In this document: piece by piece, positions 41,092-64,000 of the stretch
Layout of the letters: each line of letters opens with the position of its first letter
How positions within the stretch are numbered: position 1 is the stretch's first letter
NCBI GenBank assembly: GCA_037176885.1
Contig: JAWWNJ010000110.1
Location: forward strand, 804,620 to 868,619
DNA length: 64,000 nucleotides
Source: Favolaschia claudopus
Lineage: Eukaryota > Basidiomycota > Agaricomycetes > Agaricales > Mycenaceae
Direction of reading: 5' to 3'
The notes under the pieces: generated by a model
The model's database searches: none
What the model saw: only the letters and a program-made list of their open reading frames with translations
What the model was told of the DNA's origin: nothing
Translations under genes and position numbers: made by a program

Positions 41092-43572
41092 TTACACAAG
41101 CCTTTCAAGCACCCAGAACATATCCTCCACCGCCTCATCCCAGTCTCCGCACGGCATCCTTTCAGCAGCCTTCCACCAACGAAGGCAGATCAACGCGTTC
41201 AGGAGCCCGTTTGGACCGGTCTGCGCACGCAACTCGGACCAGTCGCCCTCTCCCGCTCGTACCAGACGCCGCCCATTGCTCGAACGCGTCCTCCATTGGG
41301 GGTTAATCGCCACCCACCACAACCACCACGTCACGGAGAATCCAAACAAGTCGGTAAGCGCAGGCTGGGGGCCCCCAACGCGCTTCCGCTGGATCCATCC
41401 CTTCACCTCCGACGGCCGTTGTTTGGTCTTCAGCCCTTTCGCCTGCGATTTCAGGTCAGTACACATACCCATTCGTAACCGCAGGTCCACTTACAGGTCC
41501 ATCAAAGTCAGCGTTCGTCTCACATTTCCACCACAGGTCGACCACCTTCTTCCACAAATCGCCGCATTCGCCATTTAGCAGCTGCGCCTTTGAATCCCTT
41601 GCCCAGTTGGGCACCCCATCAACCCTTTGCAACGATTCTCTCCCGGCCGTCTCTTCGCAGTGCGCCCCCCTCCGACGCTACCACTTCCACCCCTGGCATC
41701 ACCGTTTGCCTCCCCGTCACTACTTCCGCTCCCGCTCTCGTCGTCGTCGTACCCGTCCTCGTCAGCCGCCCTCTTCCTTCGCTTACCGCTTGGACCCTCC
41801 ACGTCCTCGTCGGGTTTCCTCTTATTCGCAGCCCGCAACTCCGCCATCATCGACGACACCGAATTTTTTAGACCCAGCTTTTCAAGTTGCTCGTTACTCC
41901 AGGCTATGTTGCTCTCCCGCGTCTGGAAGAGAACATTGCCGCCCTCCAGTTCCCTGAGGCAATCCGCCTGGGAGCCAGGGGTCATCGCTCTCACTTGGCG
42001 CCTCAGCGGCGACTTCACCAGCGGCATAGCGTCGAGCCGCGCCTCGACGTCGTTATCCTCGTCCCAATCTTCCTCTTCCCCATCCCAATCTTCTTCTTCC
42101 TCGTCTTCGGCATCGTCCTGGGCTGCATCATTTCTCGCTTTCTCCTTCGCACTGCGCTTCCCGCCCCGCCTCTTACCTCCCTCCTTTTCCGCCGCGTCGC
42201 CTTGGTGTGCTTTGCCTGCAACGTCTTTAGCGCCGCGCTTTCCACCGCGCTTCCCACCGCGCTTTTTCTCTCCTTCTTTATCGCGCTGCTCGTTGCCGTC
42301 GGCGGTGGGTGCGGAGTCGGCGGAGGGCGTGGAGTCGGTGGCGGGCGTGGAGTCGGTGGCGGGCGTGGAGTCGGCGACGGGCGCGGGGTCGGCTGCGGGG
42401 AGCGTAGAACCGGCTGGGACCGTCGATGGGATTGCCTCAGCTGCGCTCGCCAGCGGTGTCAGCGGACCTGTCGCATCGGGCTGGGCGGCTTTGCTATGGG
42501 GTGAGATGACGGCTGCTTCTAGTAAGGTAAGCACCTACCGCCCGCTAACAGGTATCTCATCCACTGATCCATGATACCTTTGAAACCCCTAGGATCCCAA
42601 GCGTTCAGTTTCAAACCCTGCGTCCCCTCGGCCGTTGCTTGCGAAGTACGGATGTCGAACCGACCGTCAATCACCGTGCCCGTTACGAGGAGCACATGCG
42701 AGCCGGTTAGAGCGCGGAGAGAGTCGAGGAGCGGTTGAACGGTTACCGCCAAACGTTCACGCGCCCTGGAATCGTACGGTGAGTACAAACTTGTAAACAG
42801 CGCAAACATGAGGCACTGACTCTCGTTGCAGGTCCGCCTCCTTCACCTCCGCCGCCCCGGCGCCTTCGCCTGTCTTGTATTCAGTCATCGCCACCTCGAA
42901 CTCTTCATCCACCCTAGCCTTCAAGGCTTCCCGGTATTCCTCCGTCTCTTCCGCCAGCAACTCCCGTGCGACCACACCGCGCTCCTTGATGCAATTTTTC
43001 TTGCCGACCAGCTCCGGGTATCTTTCTTTGAATCGCTGCTGTATCTTCGCCAACGCTTCCTCGTCCTGCATATACGACTGGTACAGCGCCAGACGCCTGG
43101 GCGCTTGCTCGTCGGCGCGTCGCAGCTGGGCAAGCCATCTTGCAAATGGATTCGACGCGCCCTTGCTTGTGCGAGCGTACGAAAACCATCGTTTTATCTT
43201 CTACACGATATTCAGCCCAGCCTCTGCCGCAGCGTAGGATTCGCTTACCGTCTCCGTCTCCGACTTCACTTTCTTCATCTCTTCCTTCTCGTCTGTCGTC
43301 AACTCGCCGTCGGGTTTCATAGGGTAGGTCGACATGTCCTCAGGCGGTTCTTCGTTTAACGCCAGCGTCCAGGGAAAGCGCCGCCAGTATTCAGCCCAGA
43401 CACCCTTCCACCAATCACGCGTCTTTCCGTCAGCAGACGCCTTGCAGAAATCGTCGATTAACGAGCGGAGAAATTCCCGCCGAGCCCCATGAAAATCTCC
43501 TGGGTTGCCGCGTTTCTTTTGCGCGCCCTCGTCCTTTTTCGCGTCTTTCCTTGTCGCCTTTTCCTTTGCCAT
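41092..43572 (-). CDS. large island protein with HTH-like motif and Trp-rich C-terminus (set 1)
   Basis: The start at 43572 gives MAKEKATRKDAKKDEGAQKK, then GDFHGARREFLRSLIDDFC and a Trp-rich WKGVWAEYWRRFPW. A 47-nt intron (about 43201-43247) joins SETET to KIKRWFSYARTSKG, a stretch resembling the recognition helix of homeodomains (K.WF..R). Next come LYQSYMQDEEALAKIQQRFK, VARELLAEETEEYREALKAR and DSLRALTGSHVLLVTGTVID. A Lys/Glu-rich low-complexity region contains DSTPAT repeats (42313-42384). The C-terminus has DLWKKVVDLWWKCE, WIQRKRVGGPQPALTDLFGF and VTWWLWWVAINPQW, ending WVLERLV at 41092. Block order is shared with the gene at 49578-52516, so the two are paralogues. I recall many such multi-copy hypothetical proteins in basidiomycetes. 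DNA binding is inferred, not shown. Confidence 0.72.
42313..42384 (-). repeat. 18-nt coding minisatellite (four units)
   Basis: Four 18-nt units of the form GGAGTCGGTGGCGGGCGT lie head to tail inside the large island gene and encode DSTPAT-type hexapeptides on the minus strand. The middle two units are identical, suggesting recent slippage. Confidence 0.8.
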
Positions 43573-44004: not shown

Positions 44005-45113
44005 CTACGACGACGACGGACCCATCCTGCCATCCCGCACCGGACGACCGGCGATGCGCACACCCACCGCCCACCCGTGCATTTGCTCCAAGATGGTCTC
44101 ATCCGCACAATACATCAAGGTAAACATGGGGCCCATCCCGCGATCCATTGCCGCGCGCACAGCCGCCTCGGGCTCGCTCCAAGATTGGTTGCGCAAGCCC
44201 TTGATGCCCCAAAGAAGGCTGCCCGGCGGAGGGAAGAGGTCGTCATCGTCGAAGGTGTACTCGATGTCGCTCAACGAGCGTGGGGAGGACTGAGGAGACG
44301 AAGAGGGCATGTCGGTGGACAAGTCGCTGATGTTGGACAAGTCGCTTGAGTTGAACGACAATACGGATGACGCGGTGGGCGGACGTGCGGGAGACGAGGT
44401 TACGGGGGGTAGATTCGCCGGGGACGACACGGGCGCCGGGGACGACACGGGCATGGTGCGCATAAAACGCGGGGTAGCAGGGGCGCGGGAAGCCGACGGG
44501 GAGGTCGGGAACGCAGACGAAAAAACCGTTCCGGTGCTGCGCGGCCATTGGTAGGTCGATGGAGAGAAGGGAGACGCGCTGGAGAGATCAAAGGGGGAAG
44601 CGAGGGTCTGGGTACCAGCCGGAGGCGTGAGGGGACGACGGGGGGGAAGGTTGAAGGCGGAAGTGGAAGGAGGGGGAGAGACGATCGAGGCCGCAGGGAT
44701 GGGCAAGGTCGAGGCAGGTGCGGTGCACACGATGCCATTGCGAACGACGGACGTGGGGGCGCTAAAGCCTTTTGGGAGCTTGGGGTTGGGGCAACCGTCC
44801 TTGTGGTGCTCGTCGCAGAGGATGGCCCAAGCCTCCTCGACGCCGCCAGGGCCGCCCCAACGCCTGACGGATCTTCTGACGGCGCCCGAAAAGCCGACGA
44901 TTTGCTCATTCGCACGAAGGCTGATGAAGGTGAGCACTCAAAACCTAGAAACCGATAGAAGACAAAAACTCACGGGCAGTCGAAGACTCCAACGCCGCAA
45001 TGGCCAGCGCCGATGAGGTGGAAGCGGCCTGCGGGGTCTGAGTCGACGGCGAAGGTGTCGTCGTAGGTGCCAGAGGCGTAGTAAAGAGGCAAGCAGCGAG
45101 TTCGCATCTGCAT
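44005..45113 (-). CDS. viroplasmin/RNase H1-N-like domain protein (set 1)
   Basis: The start at 45113 gives MQMRTRCLPLYYASGTYDDT and FHLIGAGHCGVGVFDCP. An intron (about 44928-44976) joins in frame to LRANEQIVGFSGAVRRSVRR and WGGPGGVEEAWAILCDEHH. The spacing of G..GVF, GFSGAV and EAW...C resembles the small RNase H1 N-terminal/viroplasmin-type fold (Pfam Cauli_VI), known for binding RNA:DNA hybrids or dsRNA. About 180 disordered Ser/Pro/Thr-rich residues follow, with a C-terminal block (SLLWGIKGLRNQSWSEPEAA, MFTLMYCADETILEQMHGW) of unknown type. The chain ends at 44005. The domain call is more tentative than for the copies at 53057 and 54986, because spacing differs. Confidence 0.6.
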
Positions 45114-45291
45114 TTTTAGAAAGTTTGAAGTTGGGATTTTTTGCAAAAAAAAGGTGGGGGTTGGTGGACAAGGTGGAGGGATGCTCGCTTCAGTCACATG
45201 GGAAGCTATATAGTGGCTTGCGCCACAGTTCCCGCGGTAAGTGCGCACCCTACGTTTCTTCTTCTTCCTCCCAAATCTCAGCGCAAAGACG

Positions 45292-46004
45292 ATGTCGCAG
45301 TCGGACATGAACCAAGTCGGAGAGTTGCAAAGGTGAGAAAGTGTGATGTGATCCATTCCTTGACAGTCACGGAATAACGGCTTTCCTTTTTTGTCCTATG
45401 TCTTCTCAGCGCCATTCTCGAAAATCTATCCAGCGCCGCTCTTGAAAATCTATCCATCGCCCCAGCCTCTACCCCTCCTCCTCCCCCTCCCAGCCCCAAG
45501 CCTATCCGCGAAATGGGCCCCGGCATTCGCCACGACGTCCTGGACTCGTGCCTCTCTGATCCCCGCGACATCATGGCGGCTAGGATGGAGTCTCTCAAAC
45601 ATCGGCTGCACAATCTCCACCTACTCGACACCACCGTTGAGAACACGGTCGACCCCCTCGAGGAGCTCCAATCCACCGTCGACCTCATCTTCACCGCCAT
45701 CAGCGAACCTCTCATCGGCAACCACGACGACTATTCCAGCGACGCAGCGAGCGCTGGAGACTCTGAGCACAGCTCCCTCAGCGAGGAGGACCGCGCCGAG
45801 CTGAAGACGTTGGGCCCTGCCGACCGCGCAGAATTCATGTCGTTGAGCGACGCCGATCGCGCCGAGTATTACAAGAATAAGCGCGACATTGCGGCCGCTC
45901 GTCACGCTTGGGGCACGGTCATGTCGGCGATGCGCACCTTCCGCGCCCTGCGCCCCGACGAGGACCTGAAGGAGCAGCTTGAGGAAATCCTGAAAACCTT
46001 GTGA
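45292..46004 (+). CDS. uncharacterised acidic protein with three 11-residue repeats
   Basis: ATG at 45292 opens MSQSDMNQVGELQ. A 70-80 nt intron ending at about 45409 joins in frame to SAILENLSSAALENLSIAPA, then a Pro-rich linker. The rest is acidic and helical: MESLKHRLHNLHLLDTTVEN, DLIFTAISEPLIG and, near the end, three consecutive 11-residue units (EEDRAELKTLG, PADRAEFMSLS, DADRAEYYKNK). The C-terminus is LKEQLEEILKTL at 46004. I recognise no domain; the regular DRAE spacing suggests a helical repeat or coiled coil. It is divergent from the viroplasmin-like gene, 178 bp away, and is the only + strand gene of set 1. Confidence 0.65.
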
Positions 46005-46359: not shown

Positions 46360-47089
46360 TTAATACCACCGCCATTTGCCGCGCTGGAAAAAACGTGTCT
46401 GCCCTGGCAGCGGGACATAGTCGGGGGCAGTCGTCGGGTCGCAGTGATCCAGAAAGTGATCGACCTCCTCCTCGTAACTCATCCGAACAACCCTCTTCTT
46501 GCGCTGGTGGGTGGATGAACAAGCTCCCCTCCCTTCATCCTCGGAGGACGATGAGGTGGAGGACGATGAGGCGGAGGACGTTGCCGCGTCTCCCGTATCG
46601 TCCCCCAGACTCTTGCGTCGCGTAGGTGGTGACTGCTTTCTGTCAAGCCATGAATGGACCCCGTTCTCCTTGATATACTCCCTGTATTTTGGCTATGAAT
46701 GAATTGAAAGGAAAGAGATGAAAAAAATTGCTACGCACAACGCTCGCCGATCCGCCTGCCTACTCGCCAAACGACCCCGATTCTTGAGCCTGTAGCGTGC
46801 GCTGGCGGCGCGTGCGCGTTGTTGATAATGTGAGTTCCCCTCCGAGCCGTCAGCCAGTTTTGCTCGGCGACTTGGGTTAATTCAGCGGATGAGAGAAAGA
46901 GTGTGCGAGAAACATACCGCGCCATACGCTCTCGTGCCTTTTCTCGGAGTACCTCTTTGTTCCTGTACGTGGTGTCGTTCGAGGGGCGTGCGATGAAGTG
47001 GCAGAGCGACTGTAGTACCTTTCGCGGTAGCGCGTCGCGGCTTGAAGCTGGGCCTTTGTGGAATGACCATCGACGGATTTTGACGGCAT
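46360..47089 (-). CDS. small basic Arg-rich island protein (set 1)
   Basis: The start at 47089 gives MPSKSVDGHSTKAQLQAATR, and an intron joins YRER to NKEVLREKARERMAR. Another joins to RRAKLADGSEGNSHYQQRAR and ASARYRLKNRGRLASRQADR, and a last one joins RAL to PKYREYIKENGVHSWLDRKQ. Ser-rich acidic linker, then RMSYEEEVDHFLDHCDPTTA and QTRFFQRGKWRWY to the stop at 46360. The repeated (R/K)YR.(R/K)NR.. units are Arg-rich helices somewhat like bZIP basic regions, with no leucine zipper. The gene at 56621 belongs to the same family. Nucleic-acid binding is a reasonable guess, without direct evidence. It lies directly downstream of the TET/JBP-like gene on the same strand. Confidence 0.7.
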
Positions 47090-47589
47090 ACTGGACCGAC
47101 GATTGCGACGAGAGGGTCGGTGACTGAACCAGATTTGAAGTCGGGATGAAAGTGTGTCAGTGGCGTGTGGAGGTGAGAGGTTAAAGGATGGAGGTTAAAG
47201 GATGAAGGTGGTTTGTGGTCGAAAGACCATGTATGGATACTGGACTTTGCTCGATTCTCGTGAGTTAGATATTCCGAGTCAATAAAATACCTAAAATCTT
47301 GCAAAAAAACCGGAGGCTGGGGATACATGTTCTGATCAATCTTCTCCGCGAGCACTTGGGGATCTGAGTGGTAGGTAACTTGTAAGCACATTTTCCGGTA
47401 TTTTCGGGATCGGTGAGTTCGTCATACCCGTAACGAGTTCGTCATACGCAAGGTAATTCGAGTCGTCGAGGGCGCTCTTCAGAACGTATTGGCACTAAAA
47501 TTGAAAAATTTGGCAGTAGAAAACATTGTTAAGTTAAGGTACATATGTATGAAGACAATATCGACTTGGTAGCTATAGTTTTTTGGTGG
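47090..47589. other. 500-bp intergenic region with short direct repeats
   Basis: No gene is recognised. Two short duplications are visible: AGGTTAAAGGATG twice at about 47176-47203, and GAGTTCGTCATAC twice at about 47418-47448. The stretch should hold the promoter of the Arg-rich gene and the 3' end of the dioxygenase gene. Confidence 0.5.
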
Positions 47590-48758
47590 CTAAAGTGTTT
47601 TGACAGGCCCTTCCCAAACGCTGTACATCTTTATCCCCTCCGCCCATCGCCGGGCTCGGTCCTGCTTACGACGAGCGTGCTCTGCCTGCGATGTACGCTC
47701 CGACGTATCGACGTCTTTGTCGGTGCGGAAGCCGTTGTACGCCCACCGAAATAAGCCCGCCGGGGTGTATTGGGTGAAGGAAAACCTTGTCTCGCCCTTC
47801 TGGATCTTGACGTTTGAGTGACGGAGTATTGCGGATGGAATGAGGATGGTGGCGCCGGGAGGGAAGCGGATTATCAGCTTCAAATCCCACAGGACAAGAT
47901 GGCCGCCGCGGTCGGGGTCGAAATCGCCGAGGGCGGTGATGGCGCACCAGCCCCACGCGAGGTTCCGAAAGTCGATGTGTGGCAGGGTGACAGTGGCGGG
48001 TCCGAAGTTGAAGGTAACAGTGGAGAAGACGGATAATTTGCGGGAGAAGTTGCGATGGAGGTTGTGGTCGTGCGCGCAGACGTCGGCGAAAGTGGTGTCG
48101 TAGAAGTCAAACAAATCCTTCGCAAATGCAGCGAAGATTTCTAGGGTAGGTCAGCGGTACCCGCTCCAACGGTGCGGAAGCTTTACTCACGGTTGGTCCA
48201 TCCCGCAATGCGTTGGAAGGGCTTCAGCGAAAAGAGCGAGGCTAGGGTGGCGAGGGTGTGCGCAGTTTGCGCCACATTCTGCGGGTGCGTTTGTCCCCCA
48301 CCCATGGAGACGCCCATATTCTTGGCGGCGTGTGCACCACGGCGAGGCGTGGGCTCCGACGCCTTGCGCTTGCGCCGCCACTTAGGCTCCGTGTACACTT
48401 GGATCGCGGTGGCCTGCATTGCCTCCGCCGCGGGGACCGCGACTTCGGTTTGCCAACAACGCCCGGGCTGGTCGTCGGGGAAGCCCGCAAGGCAGAGCAG
48501 GATCTGCCGATCCGCATCGACGAGCGGCGTCAGCTCCCTGTGGTAACCGTGTGTTAGAGTGTGGAGGGGAGCGAAGTAGTAGGAAGGAACATACCCTTGC
48601 CAATCATACACCCGCATATCGGGGTCCTGCGCCAACAATTCCTCAAGAGAGAAGTAACGGGGGTCGTCCTCGTCTTGTCGAACGGCTTGCCAGCCGGAGG
48701 AGGCTATGAGTCCAGGCTGTAATATAAAGACTAAATGTACTGGACACAGCCTAATCAT
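47590..48758 (-). CDS. TET/JBP-like 2-oxoglutarate/Fe(II) dioxygenase, ligands intact (set 1)
   Basis: The catalytic half is clear. FSTVTFNFGPATVTLPHIDF carries the HxD iron ligands (HID), followed by NLAWGWCAITALGDFDPDRG, GGHLVLWDLKLIIRFPPGAT, ILIPSAILRHSNVKIQKG with the distal His, and ETRFSFTQYTPAGLFRWAYN with the Arg expected to hold 2-oxoglutarate. The upstream exons give YFSLEELLAQDPDMRVYDWQ, then via an intron GELTPLVDADRQILLCLAGF, and SMGGGQTHPQNV. The end is YSVWEGPVKTL at 47590. This matches the fungal TET/JBP expansion, whose members are predicted or shown to oxidise 5-methylcytosine or thymine derivatives in DNA. The start at 48758 is only the longest open frame; an upstream exon joining at PGLIASSGWQAV is quite possible. 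Confidence 0.82.
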
Positions 48759-49577
48759 AATTTTCCTATTAACGTGGACACAGCCAGTTGGTGGCAGTGT
48801 CCTCTCTAAACACTTCTTTTTCTCTCCAGCTTTTCCCGGGCTGGCCGCCGGTCAGCGGGCATCAAATACCTAAAGTGGGTTCTTGCTCGGGACCTGATAA
48901 AGATATCTCGGTTCTGGTAGATGTGTCCGAACCTTGATAAAGATATCCAAGCCTTGATAATTAAAGATATCCACCATCTCCGTCCGTTGGCATTTTGTGT
49001 CAATGGCTGTGTGCGAGTTTTGATCTCCCTCTCCTTCGCATCAATTCCCGCCATCGCAATGCCGCCCTCCCGCCGCCCCGCCCGCCCGCTCACAAAATAA
49101 TCATATTGACAATTCCCAGCTCTTTTGACATTCAATTCTTCCACTATTTTGAATCCTAATCATTCAAAGCAAGAACTTACTCCCCAAATGTGAACTTGTT
49201 CCCAAATGTTCTGAACATAGCATTTATTCCCAGTCCCATCTCTTGTACTGACGCTCTATCACGATCATTCACCTTCCACCACACAATCCATCCGTCAAAC
49301 TACACACCGACACATCCGCGGGAAAGACCAATTTCCTGCCAAGTTCCGATCTTCCGCGTCAAGTCCTTCGTTTCGGTCAACAGTCCCTGATAACTCGTCT
49401 TAGAAATCAAGCTAAACCTCAGATTCTCTACGAAGTCTCACAAAATCCCAACTCACAATTTTCTACATATTCAACATACAAAATTACAGACAAGTAAAGC
49501 ACGAAAGCAAATTCAAAGCAAACGCAAAGCAAGTCCGACGCTTCCAAGCAAAACAAGTCCGCGAACAAACTACCCCG
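48759..49577. other. 819-bp intergenic region upstream of the dioxygenase gene
   Basis: No confident gene. A 112-codon minus frame (48806-49144) might hold a missed 5' exon of the dioxygenase gene but shows no family signature. Around 49,440-49,560 there is an A-rich stretch with repeated AAAGCAA words near the 3' end of the next gene. Confidence 0.4.
48893..48974 (-). repeat. three copies of a TTGATAAAGATATC word
   Basis: CCTGATAAAGATATC (48893), CCTTGATAAAGATATCC (48932) and CCTTGATAATTAAAGATATCC (48952, with an ATTA insertion) lie within about 80 bp, 135-215 bp upstream of the modelled dioxygenase start. Each contains GATA and its palindromic GATATC neighbour. Such spacing could reflect a regulator site array or simple local duplication. 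Confidence 0.6.
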
Positions 49578-52516
49578 CTACCCCGCAGAACTCTTCCTTG
49601 ATCTCTCATACGCAACCAGCCCCTGCATCATCCATTTCACGTCCGCAACTGCTTCCGCCCATGCCCTTTTCTCCTCGCTATCCGCTACTTTTACCAGCTC
49701 CTTCCCCCACCAATACAACGAAACGCCCAGAATCACAAATCCGTTAGCACCCGGCACCCGCAACCTGGACCAATTCTCATCCGAGGTCTCTGGATACGTC
49801 TCGCGTTCATACCACTTCTCGTTCCCCCGCTGCTTCACTCGCCAGGCCGGCTGCATCGCACGCCACCACCCCCACCAAGCTTCCTCGTATACCACAACAT
49901 TCCGAATCTCTGGACCTCCCGCACGCGTCATTGGACAATTTCTGCTACCACGCCCCAACTGAATCCACGCTTTAACCTGGGGAGGACGGCTCGTAGTCGG
50001 CAGAGTCGCGGTACGATCGCCCTCAGCCCAGTTGTAAGTCGCCTCCAGCTCCGCCGAACGTCGCAATAAGTTGCTGAATATATCCCCCAGATCCACGCCC
50101 GACATCTGGGCATACACCTTTCGGTACCATGCCGCAGCCTCTGATGGGCAAGGTGGAATCCCCGTCTCAGGTGGCGTCGAGGAACGCGACCCAGAGCCAC
50201 TTCCCCCGCCACCTAGGAAGGTGAGCGCCGCTTGAGATGGCGGGGGTTGTCCCCCTCCATTCGCAGGACCGGACGGCGTCGTTTTCGGAGGTGGTGGAGG
50301 CGTCATATGCGGCGGCTGGGGTGGAGGAGGCGGAGGTGGAACCGGCGCCGTACCGGCGGGCGGAGGCGGGGGTGGAGGAGGAGCCAAAGGCGGTTCCGCC
50401 GTATGGGCGGGCGGCGGCGGCGTCATATGCGGAGATTGGGGTGGAGGAGCCAAAGGCGGTTCCGCCGTATGGGCGGGCGGAGGCGGGGGTGGAGGAGGAG
50501 CCAAAGGCGGTTCCGCCGTATGGGCGGGCGGCGGCGGCGTCATATGCGGAGATTGGGGTGGAGGAGGAGGCGGTGGCGGAGGCGGAGGCGGCGCCATATG
50601 CGTAGATGGGGGTGGAGGAGGCGGCGCCATATGTGGAGGTGGGGGTGGAGGTGGAGGGGGTGGCTGCGACACATGCGGGGGTGGAGGCAGCGACTGCACC
50701 GTTTGAGATCCTGACGAGGTCGATTTAGACCCTGTGTTCGCGGGGGTTTTCTTTGGTTTAGGTTGGGGACGAGGACGGCTCTCCTCGATCGCTGTTGTCC
50801 CAGATCCCGACGGGCCGTCTTTAGCAAAACGGACTCGTTTGCTGCCAGGTGCTCCTTTCTCCCCGATGTCGGCCTTTCTCTTTCTTCCCCCTCCTTCGCC
50901 CTCGCTCCTAGCCTTTTTACCCCCACCATCCTTTTCCAGCCTATCGCCAGTCCGTTTCTCCCCTCCTGCCTCCACCTCCTTCTCCTTCCCCTTCCCCTTC
51001 CCCTTCGTCTTCGTCTTTTCCTTCGGTTTCTTGGCCTGGGAGCTCTTCTTCGACCCTCGCACGTCAGCCTCGGCGTCACTATCCGCACCGGATTCAAACT
51101 CCTCCCCCGAGCTCGACGAAGAGTCGCTCTCATCATCAGAATTCGCAGATTTACCCCAGCCGAGGTCGTCAGTATCGCTCATCCGATATCTTGCCCCCTC
51201 GAGCAAGTCTTCAGATTGCGGTGGCGTAAGCGCGGCCTCTTCACAGTCCTTGGGAGCTGCTCCACCTCGTTAGTCACCTTCGTATCTCCGGAGTCAGTTA
51301 GGAATACGCACTGTACGCTGTTTTGAGCCACTCGCGCATGAAGTCCAAAACATCGCGGTCGAATCGAGGTTTCACCCATTGCGGGAAAAAGCATCCTCCA
51401 GCACCTAAACTTCGTCCGTAAGATACTCTGTAATAGGGTAATAAGATGTATCAGATATAGTAGCTTCAAACAATGGAAACTTGGCTGAGAACGTACGTGA
51501 CAGTTCTCAATTCCCCTCCTTGCGCTGGAATCGGTCCGCCGAAAACCACAAAGGCTGAAAGCCCGGTGTGGTCATGGACTCCCCGCAGAACGTTGGTCAT
51601 GAAAGGACCCAAGTTATCAATACACCTGGCACCCCGACGGCCGTCAGTATTCAGCCAAAACGCAGGCAAGATGAAAGACTCACCGCTGCTTATCCTCAGG
51701 CGATTTCGAAGGCGGGGCCCTCGCCTTGAGCTCATACTCCTCCCGCGCTGACAGCGCCTCCTGACGCGCTCGCAGGCGCAGCGCGTCCTGCTCCTCGACG
51801 GGCAATTCCTTGAATAGGTCCCGCGCGACTGAGGCGCGGAAATTCGCATCCATACCCTTTGTCCGCAAAGTGGTTCCATCGTCTCCAGTGCAGGTCGCCT
51901 GCCAGCGTGCTTGAACGACCGGCTCGATGTCGGAGTCGTATGATTCCCGCATGTACTGCTGGAATCCTTGACGAGCCTTGTGGGGAGGAGTGATTCCAGA
52001 GAGTTTGGCGAGAAGGCCGGCCCAGGGATCCTTGCGAGGATCACGTTGATTCATAGGTTTGCGTAGTCGACGAGCGCGATATTTGAGCCAACGTCCGATC
52101 CTCTGAGCGGATAGAAGAAGCAAGATTGGAACAGCCGTCAGTCACGCGCAGAGAAGCCAATGGTAAACAACACTTACAGCATTCAGCGTGTCTACGCGTT
52201 CGCGCTTGGCCGCTGTCTCCTCGACGTCGAGCTCCTCAACTTCTGGTATCGCCAACGGGTCGTACTCCGGCAAAGGCTCCTCCGGCTCTTCTTCGTCACG
52301 CAGACGCCAAGATATGCGGGCGTGAAACTCATTACACACCAGCCGCAGGTAATCGCGCTCAGCGCGCCAACCTCGCTCCAATGCGTCTGTGTATGGTGCA
52401 ATGTGGGGCTTCAAGATCTCTTCACGGGCACCCTCCGCCCACATCTTCAAGTTGCGACGGTCTTTCTTCTCGATGCGCTTCCACGACCGGGCTCGTTTCT
52501 GTGTCTTGGCAGCCAT
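49578..52516 (-). CDS. large island protein, paralogue with Pro-rich insert (set 2)
   Basis: The start at 52516 gives MAAKTQKRARSWKRIEKKDR and MWAEGAREEILKPHIAPYTD. An intron (about 52113-52170) joins to RIGRWLKYRARRLRKPMN, the counterpart of the HTH-like helix of the 41092 gene. Next come GFQQYMRESYDSDIEPVVQA, VARDLFKELPVEEQDALRLR, DHTGLSAFVVFGGPIPAQGG and GAGGCFFPQWVKPRFDRDVL. Then follow an acidic Ser/Glu/Asp region, Lys-rich stretches and a long Pro/His/Met-rich repeat array (50319-50710). The C-terminus aligns with the paralogue: VKAWIQLGRGSRNCPM, AWWGWWRAMQPAWRV, NWSRLRVPGANGFVILGVSL, ending SRKSSAG at 49578. About 800 residues. Function is unknown; DNA binding is inferred from the basic WLKYR helix. 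Confidence 0.72.
50319..50660 (-). repeat. GC-rich coding minisatellite encoding poly-Pro units
   Basis: Tandem and nested repeats occur inside the large island gene. The block GAGCCAAAGGCGGTTCCGCC recurs at about 50381, 50447 and 50498, alternating with GTCATATGCGGAGATTGGGG blocks. On the minus strand they encode PPPPP runs with AHTAEPPLAP and SPHMTPPPP units. Confidence 0.85.
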
Positions 52517-53056
52517 TTCGATATCAGCTATTGGGATTTATCTCCAAGTCAGTCAATTGTCTCGTCAATAAGAAGAAATCAGCCAGTAGCTCACTTTCAG
52601 AGTTTACAGGCGGGGGCAAGGATTTCTTTTGAATTCGTGTCAATGTGTTTCTAGCATCACTCCCAGTCAGTACTTGCGAATAGGAATAAGTCAGTCAATA
52701 GCTCACTCTGAGAATTTACTGTACTGAGGCTATCGTCGGTGCGGCAAGTCTTTCTTTTCTTTCAAATCTGTGATATTTGTTGTTAATACATAGTGACATT
52801 GTTTGCTGAGAAGACTGCTCACCTGAATCGCGCTTCAAAGTCTTTTTCTGAGCCTGAAATTCGGGGGTCCAGCGAAATGAGAGGGAGCAATGTAGTCACA
52901 GCGCTTCGAATATTCGTCACGCGCCGCAGCCTACCGATAACTTAAACGATTCCCAAATCGGTCGACAAGATCTCCGATCTCCTTAAAATCTCAACGAGTT
53001 CTCTTCCCACCCATCTCTCTTTCCTCCCTTCCTCCCACTCACTCACCAACTCCCCA
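52517..53056. promoter_or_regulatory. 540-bp divergent promoter region with an internal duplication
   Basis: This separates the divergent large island gene and a viroplasmin-like gene. Two diverged copies of a segment are visible: 52569-52620 (AAGAAATCAGCCAGTAGCTC then ACTTTCAGAGTTTAC) and 52684-52730 (AATAAGTCAGTCAATAGCTC then ACTCTGAGAATTTAC). Both are followed by GGCAAG and a TTTCTTTT tract. The duplication is about 115 bp apart. Confidence 0.5.
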
Positions 53057-54985: not shown

Positions 54986-56111
54986 ATGCCTTCTACTCCC
55001 ACTCCCGCCGAAATCGCAGCACGGATCCAAGGTCCCAACAGTCGCGCCCCCCTCACCACCCTGCAACTCCATGAATACGTCGAGGATCTTTCCATCGAAG
55101 GCTGCGCCGAATTGCTTGAGCGCCTCGGCCTCGCGCCTGTCGCCACTCGCCTCGTCGTTACCCTAGATCGACTCCAGCGGGCTGCCCAAGTGCTAGCCGA
55201 CGAGAATGAGGCGTACGATGCCGAACAGCCTGTTGACTCCGCTCCCCCGTCCCCCAATTCGATATACGACTCCTTTCCGCCGTCCCCCGATTCGACGAAC
55301 CGTTCTGGTGGGCGGATTTGTTGTTCACTGATAATTATTGCTAACTGATCAAGCAGATTTGGAGCGCGGAAGTCCTCTCAGCGATACCGAGCGTCCACCG
55401 TCCTCCTTGTCACCCTCCTCGCCGACCCGGCCGACCCAACTTCCGCGCTCTGCACCTCCCACTCCGCACCGCCCCTCTCGAGCCTCTCCTCCTCCAGTTC
55501 CCGCCACCCCACACCGACGTGCTCCCGCCAGTGGCTACGCGATTCGCTCTCCCGTCAGTCGCAAGACCACCACCGTCACTTGGTTTGAGGCGAACGCCCT
55601 GACCTCGGGACACCATGGCGGCTTCGCACGCGCTCGACGTCCCCGCAAGACACCCTCCCGCCGCGGCCCCTTCAAGGCCTATGTAATCTTCATCGGCCAC
55701 GAAGTGGGAGTGTTTCAGAATTGGGCACAAGTACTCCGCCTTACCACCGGCCACGGCGCCGCTCTCCAACGTGGTTATTCGTCTGTTGAGGCCGCCAACG
55801 CAGCGTTCGCGTACGCCAGGGAGCGGGGGTGGACGAGCGACACAAATATGTCCATCGCCCGCCCCACCCCTCGCCCGGATACTCTTGAAGAACCTAGCCC
55901 CCTTTGCGAGGAAGGAGAGGATTGGTGGTATGTAGTTTGTGTCGGAATTACGCCGGGGGTGTACCGCTCGCTGCTGGAGTGCAGTCTCAATGTTATTGGT
56001 GTACCTAACGCTTCTTTTGCTTCCTTTGATACTCGCGCTGAAGCTGAGGCGGCGTATGCAGAGGCGGTCGCCGCCGGAATTTCTCGTACTGTACCTTCTC
56101 GCTCTCTCTAG
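54986..56111 (+). CDS. protein with two viroplasmin/RNase H1-N-like domains (set 2)
   Basis: ATG at 54986 gives MPSTPTPAEIAARIQGPNSR and a helical LHEYVEDLSIEGCAELLERL segment. An intron (about 55307-55356) joins NRS to DLERGSPLSDTERPPSSLSP, followed by a Pro/Ser-rich linker. The first domain is FKAYVIFIGHEVGVFQNWAQ, VLRLTTGHGAALQRGYSSVE and AANAAFAYARERGW. The second is DWWYVVCVGITPGVYRSLLE, CSLNVIGVPNASFASFDTRA and EAEAAYAEAVAAGI. Each has the YVV.VG..PGV.......V.G...A....F....EA..A.. pattern of the viroplasmin (Cauli_VI)/RNase H1-N fold. The chain ends TVPSRSL at 56111. Hybrid or dsRNA binding is inferred from the fold. An upstream in-frame ATG at about 54776 would add a stretch without family support. 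Confidence 0.8.
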
Positions 56112-56620
56112 CCCTCGTTACGATTTCTTTTGTAAAAAACAACATCTCAATATATTTGCCCGTATCCCCTGCTCTTTCCTGCCCCAATGCAATATAAAGA
56201 ACCGGCCTTTTGTCGCCTCTGCCTCAAACGATGAAGGCCTCGCCGACACAGAGACAGGGGTGTCACACAGGTCACAACCGACGAGCAGTCTCTTCTTGGG
56301 CCATATTGGCACTCTCTCTGTCCAACGAACTGGGAAACGTATTCAGTACTGTTCTATCCCCCCTCTTGACGAAAAAACTGCCCGCAAATACCTCATTTTG
56401 CCTTGGTTTGCCTATTCGATGACGAACTCCAGAAATCGAAACTGATTCCCTAACATAGATTGTGAATATCACCGACTATACCTTTTCCTCAACGTCACCT
56501 CTAGCACACCACTCCAAACAACACATCTGCTTGCTCTTTGACCTGCCTCGGCTCCACCCTTGCTTCCCGTCCCTCCTGCTTCATCCAATTCCACCACGAT
56601 CTCGACTTGTCTTTCTTTAC
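56112..56620. other. 509-bp intergenic region
   Basis: Two + strand genes flank this region. No gene is recognised. T/C-rich sequence occurs just before 56621, typical of a fungal core promoter. Confidence 0.4.
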
Positions 56621-57407
56621 ATGGCTCGGAGGGAATCCAAGTACACCCCTGAAGAACTTCGTCAGCGACGTGCTCAAGCCTCCTGGGAGTACCGGCAACG
56701 GTGAGCTGGGCTCACGTCTTTGCTCCGTGGGTGTCTCTAATCCTTCTCACTGTTCACAGTAACCAAGCGGCGACCAACGACAAAGCTCGCCTTCGCATGA
56801 GAGCGTGCGGCTACTCATGCGACTTCTGGCATGCTCCCGCTGATCTCTATTCACAGGAAACGGGAAAAGCTACTCCGTGCACCCAGCGCGGTGCAGTTGG
56901 AATACTCGGTACGAGCAGAAAAATACCGACGGGACTATACGGAGTGCGTATTCTCCTGAGTTTCTCTACTAATATGAGAAGTACTAATCAAGTACTACTC
57001 CCGTGAATAGACGAAGCGTCAGGGGGGCGGGGAGCGGCAAGAAAAAATGGAGGACGAAACAGCGGAAGGGGGCTTCGACCTCTTCTCTTACCCCCCTTTC
57101 GCGGGCCCCGCACAACATCCCCAAGTACGACGATCCACGCGAGACTTGGGGACGACATGCATTTCTCATCGATACCGCCGCACCGACCTCCTACAGCCGC
57201 GCATCGCCTCCACTCATCGACGTTCGTCCGCCGACAGCTCATACCCGCACATCGCCTCCATTGGATTTACAATATGACTCTGAGAGTGACACAGAAAGCG
57301 AACACAGCGAGGGGGGCTGGGAAGCCGACAACGAGAGCGGCAAATATGGGGAGAACTATGGGGGTACCGTCTATATCATTGGCAAGCAAACTGTATATTA
57401 TGACTAA
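56621..57407 (+). CDS. small basic Arg-rich island protein (set 2)
   Basis: ATG at 56621 begins MARRESKYTPEELRQRRAQA, then SWEYRQ. An intron (about 56700-56759) completes RNQAATNDKARLRMRA, and a second (about 56807-56859) leads to KREKLLRAPSAVQLEYSVRA and EKYRRDYT. A third intron (to about 57010) gives ERSVRGAGSGKKKWRTKQRK and a Ser/Pro-rich, then acidic tail ending VYIIGKQTVYYD at 57407. The repeated YR.RN-type basic helices match the gene at 46360-47089, so the two are diverged paralogues. About 210 residues. The TET/JBP-like gene that follows is on the opposite strand here (convergent), unlike set 1, so local order has been rearranged. Confidence 0.68.
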
Positions 57408-57724
57408 CAAACATGCTCTCCTGCACATACACCTTCACCACATCCTGTTTCATTCAAGCTCATTGAAAGCAAGCTACATATATTGTACTGAGGGAGCTAT
57501 TTAGAACCTCAGTCAAGTAATAGAATTGTGACACAGCGTAGATAAGTATACGTTGCGAAAGAGTAAACGAGTCAAATACGCGTCGCAGAATACGTAGGTA
57601 AGTATGGGTCGGAGGATATGTACCTAAGTACGGGTTGCACAGAATAAACATGAGATTAGTATGCATCGCAAAGAATAGGTAGATAGCTTGAGAGAGAAAC
57701 CGGAGTCGAGAAATAGTCAGAATG
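57408..57724. other. 317-bp convergent intergenic region
   Basis: This lies between two convergent genes. It is AT-rich with repeated AGTA(C/T)GGGT-like and ATACG words around 57,545-57,640. No gene is seen. Confidence 0.4.
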
Positions 57725-59366
57725 CTAGTCATCGCTCTCGTATCCCTGGGGTGCGGCTAACGAGGGGGGGTTGATCCCAGGGTATTCGAAGGTCAGGACA
57801 CCCTCTTGAACGTCGCGCACGAGGGGGAAGAGGTCGGCAGCCTGCACATGCGAGTCGATGCGGCGGTTCTCGCGCATGATGTGCTGCTCCTCACTAGCTT
57901 CCCTGGCGAACTCGACATCCGACTTGTAGCCGTTCTCCACAAACCGACGCACGCCCGAACCCGCCCATTGAATGATGGAGTACCGCTCTTCTGTAGGCCC
58001 GACGTCGACAAATGAGTAGCGTACAATGCCGGTGGGGATTAGGATCGAGCTGCCGGCGGGGAATTGAATGACCAATCCCAAGTCCCAGAGAATTATATGG
58101 CCACCGTGAAGGGATCGAAAAGTACCCGCCGCCGTCACAATACTCCAGAAGGCGGCCTCGAAGGGAGGGATGTTGCCGCGCCAGTCGGAGCGATTACGGT
58201 GAGGACCCCCAAGTTCGACGGTAGCAGCTGAAAACACACTAGCTTCGCAAGGATAGAAGGCGGTGGGATAGAAGGCGAGGAAATCCTCTTTTTGAGTCAA
58301 AAGGGCGGAGTAGGCGGCGTAGCAATAGATTTTGAAGAGACCTGAAAAAAGGGAAGAGGCAAGGCCGCGGCGTGAGAAGACGCTGACAAAGATTGAAAGT
58401 GGACTTCACTCACCATTCACAAATCCCAAGAGGTTACACATCGCAATGGTGCTGAAGATGGCGGCAAATGCAAGAGTATCAGCAACACGAGCAGGCTCTG
58501 GACCTTTGTCCTAAATCCCAGTGTCATCAGCCAACGTCTCTCACGCCAAAAAAAACAAAATCGGTATTGAACTCACGGCGACAGGAAGCTGGTTGAAACT
58601 CTCCCCGATTCCACCAGACAACACGGGACTCTCGTCGGCCGGATGTCTGACTTTGTAGGCTGCGGCTTCACGACGACAATGGCGATTGATATCGTTAAGA
58701 TGACCTTTCTTGACATCGACATTGTCGGCACGTCCCAACAGAAGCAAGACCAGTCTTCCTTGCGAAAAGACAGGGCGAGCGAACCTGCGAAAAAGGTAAA
58801 GGTGAGCTATAGAAATGCAGGAATCTAGAATATAGAGTGACGAACCCGCCACCCCAGGGTATGAGCCGGAAACGGAAGAGCGACTTGGTCCCCACGACCT
58901 CGTCCAGAGCATAGTTCCGGTCTTCGAGCAGAGCCGCGTCAAAGGCTTGACCGTCGCGCACAAGAATACGACCGCGGGAGTTGAAAGGAGGGACGGTGAA
59001 TACTCGGCGAGCGTCCGCGACGTCTTGCCACTGATTCCGGAACCGTTGTTCACGCTCGAGGGCGACGCGTGCTTCCGCACGGCTGCGGGAGTATTGGGTG
59101 TGCTGGGGCGGTGAAGGTGTGTCGGTCTGGACTTCAGCGTTTGCATAACCCGGGGGAGGAGGAAGAGGCTGCTCCTCAGGCAGCTCGTGGCCGGCGAAGG
59201 GGAGGGATGGATCTTGATGAGCTATCTCCTCTTGCAGGCGACTCTCGAGGTCGAATGTGAGATGCGGCTCGAGCTGTGTGTCCAGATGCAAACCGAGAGC
59301 GCTGTAAGACGGGATGCGTCGAGTGCGCTTGGGGCGATTGCGATTGGGATTGGCGACGCGGCGCAT
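57725..59366 (-). CDS. TET/JBP-like protein with degraded metal site (set 2)
   Basis: The start at 59366 gives a long N-terminal extension: MRRVANPNRNRPKRTRRIPS, a Pro-rich part, and EARVALEREQRFRNQWQDVA. The dioxygenase-associated region follows: SLFRFRLIPWGGG, an intron, FARPVFSQGRLVLLLLGRAD, SPVLSGGIGESFNQLPVA and CNLLGFVNGLFKIYCYAAYS. The catalytic core aligns with the set 1 enzyme at GGHIILWDLGLVIQFPAGSS and ILIPTGIVRYSFVDVG, then EERYSIIQWAGSGVRRFVEN. The HxD site is replaced (PHRNRSDWRGNIPPFEAAFW), and the distal His of RHSN is Tyr (RYSF). The 2-oxoglutarate-binding Arg (ERYS) remains. It ends PQGYESDD at 57725. The protein is probably not an iron-dependent oxygenase as written; a binding or regulatory role is speculative. 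Five or so introns. Confidence 0.78.
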
Positions 59367-59713
59367 GGAATTGTCGGGCGTGCGTGAAGGCGTGCGTGTC
59401 CTTTTTTTGTGGGGGGGGAATGGGGACTCAGAGACAATTTTGGTTGGGATTTTGACTGCTGCGCCTAGTGAATTCCGGGATTAGCCGATGGCTGCATCCA
59501 ACGCACCATATATGGGGCTAAGTACCGCCGTAACGAGTGATCCCATTTTCCACTTTTTTTGGGCTGACGATTCACATCGGGACCTAACCGAAACGACTCG
59601 CGCAAGCGAGACGAGCCAGACCGGTTCACAATACTGGGGTCGAGGATAAAAGGTGGCGTAGGTTTGTCTCAGGCATCATTCGCCCTTCTTTCTCTTTTCT
59701 CTCATACTTATAC
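59367..59713. promoter_or_regulatory. 347-bp divergent intergenic region
   Basis: This separates the divergent inactive-dioxygenase and orphan genes. It contains a TATA-like ATATATGG word (about 59507) and a TCTTTCTCTTTTCTC pyrimidine tract (59687-59701) just before the + strand ATG. No named site is claimed. Confidence 0.35.
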
Positions 59714-60946
59714 ATGGCAGACTCTCCTCCTTCCCCCCGAATCGACTTCACCATCCCCTTATTGTTCGAAATGTCGAGCTTCCCCTCGAGGTCGCTCGCT
59801 CCCTTCCCCTTCCCTCAGCATCTTCTCTCCACCCCCCAAGGCTCGCGTGCAGCGTCGCCCTCGGACAGCTCTTCGGAGGAAGAGCCCAGTACGTTCCATT
59901 CACATTCCGTTGACCGGCTCTAACACTTCTCTAGATGTGCAAAAGCTTCTTGGGTATGAAGTCATCACGACTCATCGCGTTGCTGGCTTGCCGACGTAAG
60001 TGTTCTCGCAATTCTCTTCTACTATGACTGACCTGTTTGCGATTGCAGCGAGCATATTGAACACATACTCCAATCATTCCGCGACCGGTACCGGCGGGAA
60101 GGCCATCCAGAATCTCGCAACACCAGCGGCGACGCCCTCGCGCGGATGTCACGGAACGCTCAAATCCGCCTTGCGTACGACGCCACCGCGCATCGCCTGC
60201 GGTCGTTGTACACCGACGAGGTCCTCACGCCCCTGGCCGACGCGCAGCGCGGTGAGCGCCTGAGGTATGTTTTGCCGGCTTTTCTTCCTCAATGTTCCCT
60301 CTTGCTTACTCTGTTCCTCCAGAAGCTTCCTGCATCCGATTCCCCGGTCCCATGGCGCCAGGATCGCGGCTTCCTTAGCTCGGAGGGAACGCTACGAGGC
60401 TTGGGACAACGTGGACCCCGAAGATATCAAGATGGCCGTCGAGAACGACAGCGACGACGAGATGCCTCCTCTTATTCCGCCCCCTCGCGAGGAAGACGAC
60501 CTCTTTCACAATAACTCGGATGCTCCGGAGTCTGCAGAGCAGGCTGGCTTGCGGCGCTGGGCGGCGTAAGTCCAGCAGTATCTCTATGATTTTGTTTTCA
60601 TGCTAATCTTTTGTTTTACCTTCTGCAGCAACGGATTCATAACCTGGTTCCCTCCCATCTTCCTTACTACTGAACGCCCCTTCACGGAGCCGCCATACGC
60701 TGCCAATACATTGGACGAGCCCCATCTCGTCAAGGTACGTCGCGCACTTCTTTTTTCTTCTTCTGGATATTCTGTTGATGGTTTCTCGATTAGATCTACA
60801 CTGCGTCCAGCACGAGGGAGGGGGAATGTCACTGCGAGGACGGTAAACATAAGGATTGGCAAGAGAAGCAGGGGTACGCGTTCAGAGCGGACGACGGAAC
60901 GCTGGTGGTTCAGCAGTCGAAAATGGTGTTGGTGCCCATGGTTTAG
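59714..60946 (+). CDS. uncharacterised island protein
   Basis: ATG at 59714 gives MADSPPSPRIDFTIPLLFEM and a Ser/Pro-rich segment. An intron (about 59889-59934) joins to NVQKLLGYEVITTHRVAGLP, and a second gives TEHIEHILQSFRDRYRREGH. Helical basic segments follow (ALARMSRNAQIRLAYDATAH), then the next exon HPIPRSHGARIAASLARRER, EAWDNVDPEDIKMAVENDSD, and, after another intron, NGFITWFPPIFLTTERPFTE. The last exon carries ECHCEDGKHKDWQEK and ends MVLVPMV at 60946. I recognise no domain; the ECHC..GKH stretch might bind metal but is too short to judge. About 290 residues in five exons. Its position directly before the KDZ gene makes it a candidate element passenger. Confidence 0.62.
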
Positions 60947-61257
60947 TTCCTTACATCGAGTCGTACCTTGAGTCCCTTGCATTGAGTCGTACTTTGAGTC
61001 GTATGGTAGTAGTCGTAGATTTTTTGTTTTCCTTTTTCGGTAGAGAATAATGTGCAAAAGTCCCAAATTGGGACATGTTTTGAATTGTTTTTTCTTGGGC
61101 CTCACTCTCGAGTACAGACAGCGCTGAGCGCTCTCAACGTCTGGAACTGCAAGCTGCTGGCTCTGGAGCCTTCGTTTCAAGATGTTCGCACTACTGCTTC
61201 CCTCCCTCATCTCAGACTCCTTCTGGGGTCACCTCGTCTCCTTCTGGGGTCACCTTG
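60947..61257. promoter_or_regulatory. 311-bp region upstream of the KDZ gene
   Basis: The first part repeats the word (A/T)GAGTCGTA three times at about 60957-61002. An A/T-rich stretch follows, then the tandem repeat at 61217-61255. No gene. Confidence 0.4.
61217..61255 (+). repeat. two-unit tandem repeat, 21-bp period
   Basis: CTCCTTCTGGGGTCACCT occurs twice, at 61217-61234 and 61238-61255, with a 21-bp period. It ends two bases before the KDZ gene start codon at 61258. It may be part of the leader of that gene or near an element boundary. Confidence 0.85.
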
Positions 61258-64000
61258 ATGTCGTCGCATTTTGTCTCACCGACGCGCCGTGCGCCCAATC
61301 GCTCCCAAACGGTGGACGCCTATGTCGACTATGAAGCCACAGCAGATGATATCTCGCGCGACACCGACTTTACCTCGTCTCAAGACGGACTGCGCGGAGT
61401 TCGTCGCGCGGTCAACGTCCAGAGTCGGCGGCCTACAAGATTGCCGCATGAGCTTGACGCCCTGAGCAACTGGACGCCGCTTGCGGATGGTGAGCGTGTG
61501 GATGAGGAGGAGGTGGGGGATGTCGGTAGTAAGAGGAAGCGGTACGACAGCTCGGTATGCTGCGTAGCTTTTCGTTTGACTGACAATGGACTAACGCAAT
61601 GCAGGACGAACCGATGAAAACTTGGCGGCCGCTCGCGCAGCTTTTTTTGGAAGAGCTGGTACGGCGGGACGGACTGGGAGATTTTGGTAAAGCGTGCGGC
61701 AGCTGTGGAAGGGCGGAAGACGGTTGGCGACGATTTCGTTGCGAGGACTGCGGTCCGTCCACTCATTGTCAGGAATGTATGATAGCGAGGCACCAATTGA
61801 TGCCTCTGCATGTACTGCAGGTACGTTTCTCGTTTATCTTGACTGATTCAAGAGCCTCACATTCAATGCAGGAATGGACGGGTGCTTTTTGGAGCCAGGT
61901 CTCCCTCGCGTCCTTGGGATATGTGTTCCAGCTAGGACACGGTGGATTGCCTTGCCCCCGCCCTGCGCCCGCCGCGCGTTCCATGGTAGTTATGGACTTC
62001 CCCACCATCCACGACGTCAAATATCGCTATTGCGCGTGTGACTTGTCCGATCGTATGAACAATCTCCAGCAACTCCTACGTACCGGCTGGTACCCGGCGA
62101 GCACAGTGGATCCTGCCACGTGTGCCACGCTCAAGACCTTGGAATCCTTCCGACTTTTGAACGTAGTGGGGGACTTAACAGTGCACGACTTTGTGCGGGT
62201 GATGGAACAATGTACGGATGCGAGCGGGCTTGAGGAGCTTCCGGTGGGTGAGCCCGTGTCAGAACTGTGATATGATGCTGACGAGGGTTCATTGGGTAGG
62301 ATCGTCGTAAGGGTTTTGGGCGGATGAGCAGACAATTTGCTTTCGTGCAGCGTATGAAGAGAGCCGGTCGAGCGCATGACGCAGGAGGATTGGAGTCCAC
62401 AACGCGGGGGGAGTGCGCTGTGCTGTGTTGGCGTGCCCGCAGGAGGGAATCAACCTACCGGAGGGATGGGAGGACGTAGGGCCGGAGTTTCAGTGCGTAT
62501 CATCATTTTTTTATTCCAGTTCGACACAGGCTGATTTTGCGATTGAGATTTCTGTATATACTTATCATCGCGATGGACGCGAACTTTCGGCTACGCAATC
62601 GCTTGCGCGCAAACGCCCATGAGGATCCTCCTTTGGGATCGGGGTGGGGGCATATCGTGGAAGAGAGCTGCTACAAGAAACATCTGAGGAATTATGTCGC
62701 TGAGAAAGATATTAGTACGTGCATCGCGTTCGCCGCCTTGGCGCAGAAAGACACTCGGTTGTCGACGGGACTGCGGGCTTCGGGGATGGGGGGGGTTGGT
62801 ATGCGCGCGACATGAGTTGGTGCGGCCCCAAGGGCTGGGAGATTTACAGAAGGGAGAACGGTATGAGATTTCTAATATAGCTGTGCGAGATTTTTACTGA
62901 ATTTATTGCAAGGTACGCAAACATGGATTACATTGTCTTGGCGGCCCTCATGGGCGTCGCCTTGCTCTACGTCGCGATTGCGTACGATATCGTATGTCAG
63001 TATCGCATTAACTTCGAAGCGCGGATGGCGAAGCTGCCCAACGACATGCAGCTTGATCTCAAGAGGACGAAGGTACTCTATGGATTGCCCGTATGGCATG
63101 CCACTGCCCACGAGCGAAACTGCCAGTCGCAGAATTCGCTAACGTACCAGCCGGGGGTTGGGAGAACGGACGGTGAAGGGACGGAACGAGTGTGGTCGGT
63201 ATTCAATGGGTTGGCGACGGCGACGAAGGAAATGAACAGGGGCGCGCGGGAGGACGGGATTGAGGATAAGGTGGACCACCACAATTTTCAGAAAAACATA
63301 CGACAGGGTAGGTACTTGTTTTGGGGTTAGATTTGGAGTTACTCACGTAAATTTACAGGTGAGGCCTTGCCACGCAAGCTGGTCCATCGCCATCGACGAA
63401 CGCGACCGGCAGGTGGCGGCTTTCGATGAGGTAGATAGAACATTGGACCAGTCGCTGCGAAAAGAGTGGCAGGGGATGGTTGACGCCTGGACTGAGGACA
63501 AGACGAAGCCGAATCCTTACCAGTTGGATGACGGGGAAAAGCGGTAAGTTCTCCAGCGTTGCACCTGATAGTTTGCTGATATACGGGACAGGAGTGAGCG
63601 AGGCATCCATTCGGCAAGCGCTCGCGCAAGAGGAATTGGACGAAGCTGTGTCAAGCAAGTCAACGCTCCACAAAGCTAGCGTAACTTCCATGCTAGTCAT
63701 GGGTTTACAGCTGGAGGACCACCAGTATGTCGGCTCACCTCATCAGAGTGCACAGGGTCACTGATTATATCTGGAAGGGATCGGATTCGGCGTGAATCAA
63801 AGGGCCGCGCGCTTCTCGCCGGTGATCTGTCTGAGCGTGTTACGACTCTGCGGCGCTCGTTCCATGTCAAGCTAAAACAGTTCCGTCGACTGCAGGATGT
63901 CTACACCCCCGGCGCTGTTGAAGAGTTGAGGGCGGCAGAGGAGAGACGGGATAGCGAGCTGCCTCCGCCGCAGGCGGAGGACATTGTTCTCTATATGCCG
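61258..64000 (+). pseudogene. KDZ-family transposase gene with CxC2 cluster, 3' partial, two apparent frameshifts
   Basis: ATG at 61258 opens MSSHFVSPTRRAPNRSQTVD. The CxC2 cysteine cluster is KACGSCGRAEDGWRRFRCED, then CGPSTHCQECMIARHQLMPL. After introns, the KDZ core has SFRLLNVVGDLTVHDFVRVM, RMKRAGRAHDAGGLESTTRG, PQEGINLPEGWEDVGPEF, LIIAMDANFRLRNRLRA with a candidate first Asp, ARHELVRPQGLGDLQKGERY, ANMDYIVLAALMG with a candidate second Asp, AYDIVCQY, and GRTDGEGTERVWSVFNGLAT with a candidate Glu. Two one-base frame breaks are needed: near 62429-62430 (between AVLC and ACPQEG), and at a run of eight G at 62788-62795 (between RASGMGG and VCARHE). They may be real lesions or sequence errors. 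The frame is open at the window end (EDIVLYMP). KDZ elements are eukaryotic DNA transposons, abundant in basidiomycetes. Confidence 0.85.

Follow-up and report, generated by a model that had tools for sequence, protein, structure and literature searches.

Gene content of the locus

The window analysed here is the terminal 64 kb of contig C110 in the 264.6-Mb assembly of Favolaschia claudopus, and towards the contig end it carries two sets of genes, each including a TET/JBP-like gene and a large tryptophan-rich (Trp-rich) gene. Very likely each set is a multi-gene DNA transposon of the KDZ superfamily, the two belonging to families that diverged long ago, with set 2 lying within the TET gene of set 1. 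Set 1 comprises the Trp-rich gene (41092-43572, minus strand; exons near 41095-41490, 41578-42534, 42760-43200 and 43204-43572, start placed by eye), a gene that we call the slot gene (44005-45190, minus; exon limits approximate), a small conserved gene absent from the initial annotation (45378-46004, plus), a small basic, Arg-rich protein gene (46360-47194, minus; exons approximate) and the TET/JBP-like dioxygenase gene (47590-48707, minus), which keeps the HxD motif and distal His and whose N-terminal exon is cut by set 2. Set 2 begins with its Trp-rich gene (49578-52537, minus), in which tandem repeats at 50277-50687 encode a proline-rich linker. It continues with a gene at 53057-53699 (plus), an RNase H1-N gene at 54986-56111 (plus), a small basic protein gene at 56621-57407 (plus; exons approximate) and a TET/JBP-like gene at 57725-59480 (minus; 5' limit approximate), in which the HxD spacing is lost and the distal His is replaced by Tyr. 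The strands thus differ between the sets in the way first described. Last comes a KDZ transposase gene (61584-64000, plus) that runs past the contig end at 64000. As evidenced by a CxC2 cluster in 61584-62267 (PF18803, E 5e-31) and a KDZ core in 62881-63327 (PF18758, E 9e-36), a KDZ transposase is indeed present, as had been proposed.

The initial annotation had paired four protein families between the sets and let its idea of a gene module depend on these alignments under profile search. All-against-all BLASTP of the 1175 window open reading frames (ORFs) of at least 35 amino acids, with low complexity masked and a cut-off of E 1e-3, gave only two non-overlapping pairs. The TET/JBP-like genes align at 47593-48150 and 57728-58405 (BLASTP E 3.5e-23, profile E 9e-25), and the Trp-rich genes at 41095-41490 and 49581-51269 (BLASTP E 4.5e-12, profile E 3.1e-15). 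Profiles matched two more exons of the Trp-rich pair, at E 5.1e-7 (probability 92%) and E 1.8e-4 (probability only 48%), so that the match is clear at the C-terminal and middle exons and weak at the N-terminal one. The other two pairings did not hold. Three genes had been called viroplasmin- or RNase H1-N-like, and only the one at 55335-56108 is, with two Cauli_VI (RNase H1 N-terminal) stretches (PF01693, E 2.6e-21); the 44005 gene and the spliced 53057 peptide match no Pfam family at E 1. We detected no similarity between the 44005 and 55335 genes (E 0.18 with a three-sequence profile, a weak test), nor between the Arg-rich genes, for which no ORF match was obtained and the longest exons gave E 0.26 (two-sequence profile, likewise a weak test). 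The unit stands nevertheless, because the TET/JBP and Trp-rich pairs hold together with the KDZ gene.

Each set has its own termini and target-site duplication

Set 1-type copies on contigs C25 and C8 are 99.0% identical across 13.9 kb and differ outside, which places the element boundaries at CAGCCCATATAG... and ...TATATGGGGTG, flanked by 7-bp duplications (ACCACAG and GGTATAT). On C58 a third copy, flanked by GATATGA, shares 74 to 78% DNA identity with the window in three blocks. The window copy starts at 40493 with a related terminus (CAGTCCATTTAG...), directly preceded by ATTCCGA at 40486-40492. Its left part extends to 48707, where the match to C58 breaks off within the TET gene. From 48708 a new terminus begins (GAGTCCAGGCTGTAATATAAAG...; the set-2 element reads GAGTCCAGGCTG...), which also occurs at the ends of elements on C6, C81, C194, C96, C26 and others, and the 7 bp before it (48701-48707) are AGGCTAT.

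The set-2 transposon fills the window from 48708 to 64000, and its right end lies about 1.2 kb beyond, on contig C282, where it terminates with ...CACAGGTG at C282:12038, for a total of about 16.5 kb. Past this position C282 continues with AGGCTAT and then with DNA that resumes the match to the C58 TET gene (81%, 216 bp). The remainder of set 1 follows, with its KDZ gene (C282:14873-15280), its right end and then ATTCCGA (C282:17410-17416). Because the right termini and duplications are found on C282, both insertions are seen from both sides, and the two sets came to lie together through transposition of set 2 into set 1. Termini, KDZ transposase and target-site duplication (7 bp, perfect) are thus separate for each set. 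Where both sides of a site were read, duplications of this length are present at 4/4 set 1-type and 3/3 set 2-type sites. Set 1-type termini are CA..TG with imperfect terminal inverted repeats (TIRs): over the terminal 60 bases, 48 agree in C25, 47 in C58 and 41 in the window. The set-2 terminus begins GA. The set 1-type transposase, taken from the C25 copy, carries the KDZ domain (PF18758, E 3.2e-35) and the CxC cluster (PF18803, E 3.5e-35).

Between C110, C282 and C460 the set-2 TET exon shows no difference (100% identity), and the KDZ exon is likewise identical among these and C82. As the flank of the C82 and C460 elements is unlike that of C282, two insertions of a nearly unchanged set-2 element are visible, a sign of recent activity.

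Further elements share these features. Set 2-type termini also enclose elements of about 5 kb, at C81:205991-211181, C194:166056, C96:692448-702643, C26:367725-373406 and C8:1726030-1731393; these elements have no internal TET or KDZ match among the matches listed and are probably non-autonomous relatives. One end of the C8 element adjoins a TET fragment at 1731394. Four set 1-type elements (C46:1315776-1343028, C67:1283993-1313499, C35:138763-161397 and C4:1001526-1028941) hold 11 to 21 kb extra and are further probable nests. The inserts on C46 and C67 contain a second KDZ and Trp-rich match and that on C4 a KDZ match; in the C4 element the TET gene itself is split, like that of set 1 in the window.

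The gene sets recur in fixed order across the genome

Searching the genome with set-1 TET DNA returned 31 set 1-type TET matches, among which C4 is entered twice, as about 20 kb of DNA separates the two parts of its TET gene. Genome counts given here are lower bounds, as the large searches score the best candidates only, and expected values are those for uniform placement. All 31 matches have a Trp-rich gene within 30 kb, on the expected side and strand, and in 27 it lies at 6.3 to 7.2 kb. Within 10 kb we found the Trp-rich gene at 28 (expected 0.35), the set-1 slot gene at 29 (expected 0.11) and a set 1-type KDZ gene at 26. The last count comes from a second KDZ query, run because the set-2 query found set 1-type KDZ genes at only 10/31 loci. 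Around the 61 set 2-type TET loci the same distance includes Trp-rich genes at 43 (expected 0.68), slot genes at 56 (0.47) and KDZ genes at 49 (0.69).

When TET, KDZ, Trp-rich and slot-gene matches were joined by 10-kb linkage, 283 clusters resulted, with "slot gene" standing for two pooled queries that have no detectable relation to each other. All four families are present in 45 clusters, and wherever a cluster contains exactly one of each (34/34) the order is Trp-rich, slot gene, TET, KDZ. The small set-1 genes follow the same pattern: the query 45378-46001 gave 14 rows at 12 loci and 46363-46692 gave 5 rows at 4 loci, all of them set 1-type TET loci. Co-occurrence is far above that expected, and we rejected chance linkage of the families. 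This bears out the suspicion, raised from the window, of a recurrent multi-gene unit in which a TET/JBP gene is linked to a KDZ transposase. Both elements are instances of a recurring type in which several uncharacterised partner genes accompany a TET-like gene.

These partner genes look constrained. Between the window and C58 the ratio of non-synonymous to synonymous substitution rates (dN/dS) is 0.10 for the Trp-rich C-terminus, 0.13 for Trp-rich exon 2, 0.22 for the slot gene, 0.18 for the small gene (75 codons) and 0.24 for the basic protein. Overall, 13 of 15 comparisons fall within 0.03 to 0.24.

Relatives of the Trp-rich protein occur in Favolaschia and Mycena, with 12 matches in a protein search that scored only candidates with most words in common (P0001-P0012) and 14, five of them new, in a region search. 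In Mycena crocata a TET relative (P0035) and a Trp-rich relative (P0134) are on contigs of equal length (326270 bases), a hint that the two families may be linked there too. None of 17 members matches Pfam at E 0.01. The structure model is helical and includes long segments of low confidence (predicted template modelling score, pTM, 0.32), and a fold search with it found no PDB neighbour below E 1.9. MADS-box proteins, in 3/9 rows of that search at E 6 to 10, were judged to align with a low-confidence part and were not used. P0001, from F. claudopus, is annotated with an additional C-terminal extension, either a fusion or a gene-model error. Among the clusters, 21 combine only Trp-rich and slot genes and 10 only KDZ and Trp-rich genes; such clusters may represent related families in which no TET gene was detected.

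Set-1 and set-2 TET-like proteins differ in the iron site

In the set-1 family the iron-binding triad H322, D324 and H375 is conserved to at least 90% at each position among 44 aligned sequences and is present in the window copy. For PF12851 the window exon reaches E 0.086, short of the cut-off, and at E 0.01 the domain is recognised in 2/44 relatives (best 9.5e-7). When the TET proteins were compared with PDB sequences, neither single-sequence nor profile searches returned a TET, and PHROGs yielded no more than a weak match to the TET protein (0.0073). The TET/JBP double-stranded beta-helix fold was recovered for the set 1-type protein by structure model only. The model shares its fold, the HxD motif and the distal His with CcTET from Coprinopsis cinerea (PDB 7vpn, 7w5p, 8jkk), although identity is only about 11 to 14% and neither single-sequence nor profile searches link the two. 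By ungapped count rather than alignment, positions +3 and +9 after the iron-binding Asp are Asn and Cys in the set 1-type family, as against Gly331 and Asp337 in CcTET in the text covered from Kojima (2025, PMC12730594).

The set-2 protein is a TET/JBP homologue by descent, and we do not count it as an active member. Its distal His is Tyr and the HxD spacing is lost in 7/7 copies read. Because the canonical iron site is lost, a binding or regulatory role would be more likely than catalysis. Catalysis with an unusual site made up of the His, an Asp a few residues on and the Tyr seems improbable, even though the His is kept in 7/7 copies, the nearby Asp in 6/7 (one Asn) and dN/dS is low (0.06 to 0.16). 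The invariant Tyr speaks against it, and we know of no TET with such an iron site.

Alternative explanations

The extra genes may instead be passengers, fungal genes that were captured and travel along fortuitously, playing no part in transposition. Their functions are uncharacterised, and KDZ, TET and Trp-rich matches also stand alone (62, 47 and 27 of the 283 clusters, respectively, among the matches listed). Against a passenger origin stand the invariant order and dN/dS values of 0.10 to 0.24 in the slot gene, the small gene, the basic protein and the Trp-rich exons, and we regard it as unlikely.

Several observations weigh against two nested transposons with functional cargo. The genome paper of F. 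claudopus CIRM-BRFM 2984 gives, in the part covered, a size of 265 Mb with 86.8% duplicated BUSCO genes (PMC10905254), which we take to mean that both haplotypes are in the assembly; locus counts therefore include allelic copies. As element copies are also related by descent, the counts show linkage, not independent events. At the 63 other TET-like loci a Trp-rich match lies within 10 kb in only 11, so TET and cargo are not inseparable, and 14/61 set 2-type TET loci have no Trp-rich match within 20 kb; some of these are close to contig ends (C274:530, C282:4604, C460:10258), others are not. One dN/dS value is 1.22 (Trp-rich exon 1, 41% identity, probably misaligned), one comparison has no dS, and several dS values exceed 1.5, close to saturation. 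For the Trp-rich family neither a fold nor a Pfam match is known, so the partner roles are drawn from linkage only. Finally, the RNase H1-N exon of C282 and C460 matches the window in two pieces only, at 94 and 99%, so identity between the copies is not complete. Because of this difference C282 is perhaps an allele of C110 or a poorer contig end; it may be either the continuation of C110 or an allele, and set 2 lies within set 1 in both cases.

The initial annotation had favoured an ancient segmental duplication in which a host gene module lies beside a KDZ element, its possible mover. Such a duplication would account for two pairs of diverged homologues in the same overall order, but it is highly improbable, as the termini, KDZ genes and 7-bp duplications are separate for each set, set 2 interrupts the set-1 TET gene, copies are dispersed by the dozen and, barring misassembly of C282, the target-site duplications refute it. 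Flanking repeats and duplications, sought around the sets as a whole, do exist as the imperfect TIRs of set 1 and the 7-bp duplications, but they delimit two separate elements, not one shared one.

Proposed mechanism

For the two nested KDZ transposons, the following course can be proposed. By analogy with the KDZ family, the transposase would cut and paste the element through a 7-bp staggered cut. The set 1-type TET-like enzyme probably oxidises methylated bases on the element DNA and would thereby counter methylation-based silencing; lifting of silencing by TET is proposed for TET-positive transposons in the covered text of Kojima (PMC12730594). The Trp-rich, RNase H1-N-like and small basic proteins might be nuclear, probably nucleic acid-binding partners that aid transposition or anti-silencing, given the constant order of their genes and the signs of constraint on them. 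More tentatively, such elements could form a large class of mushroom transposons with a conserved, co-evolving anti-silencing set of TET-like, Trp-rich and nucleic acid-binding proteins as part of their own machinery, in one old branch of which the eraser enzyme would have turned into a catalytically dead yet selected DNA-binding protein. If so, two different ways of handling host DNA methylation would exist among these elements. A need for the cargo in transposition or anti-silencing would help to explain the abundance of TET-like and Trp-rich genes here and their relatives in Mycena. A puzzling gene set becomes a mobile element with known ends whose genes can be tested singly, and versions of a transposon TET with active and dead sites become available for side-by-side comparison.

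Relation to known transposons

TET-positive KDZ (Kyakuja) transposons were reportedly described in Agaricomycetes by Iyer and colleagues in 2014. Both set types here belong to the KDZ superfamily by their PF18758 domain and PF18803 CxC cluster, and they are closest to Kyakuja by target-site length. In the text covered, two Laccaria Kyakuja families have CA..TG termini without TIRs (Kojima 2025, PMC12730594). Because set 1-type elements have imperfect TIRs and set 2 starts GA, we do not file them as Kyakuja proper. The TET-positive Kyakuja elements of Agaricomycetes, as presented in the same text, resemble ours in combining KDZ and TET/JBP genes, in 7-bp duplications and, for set 1, in CA..TG; besides the termini, the set 1-type differs in its further conserved genes and in a TET lineage that single-sequence and profile searches leave unconnected to CcTET.

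The covered part of that paper also describes TET-positive IS3EU and PHISTA elements of rust fungi, which likewise join TET to a further protein (an alpha-kinase in IS3EU, where order is kept, and an unnamed third protein in PHISTA), but they belong to other transposase superfamilies and IS3EU has other partner genes (PMC12730594). KDZ transposons are known from Cryptococcus and Marasmius oreades too. As far as the covered text goes, Cryptococcus KDZ1-KDZ3 are about 9 to 11 kb long, of CxC1 type and seen to move, with 4 to 8 bp duplications and TIRs of 139 to 241 bp, and no TET gene is mentioned there, unlike in the elements described here (PMC12810828). TIR motifs are described for the M. oreades elements in the part covered (PMC8290104). 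TET genes in KDZ elements and extra proteins in other TET-positive transposons are thus already known. In the passages covered by a literature search, whose scope lay outside Iyer et al. 2014 and the supplements, those of Kojima 2025 included, we found no description of the constant additional genes that these KDZ elements carry.

Host genes around the elements

Set 1 appears to be inserted in a gene, since the outer flanks, joined from the window and C282, keep a single open frame of 541 codons. The window part of this ORF (39254-40485, minus) matches no Pfam family above the cut-off. Ten ORFs scanned further upstream, in 1-38000, include condensin subunit 1, citrate synthase, Sds3-like, Sin3-corepressor and DUF1295 proteins, which are ordinary host genes.

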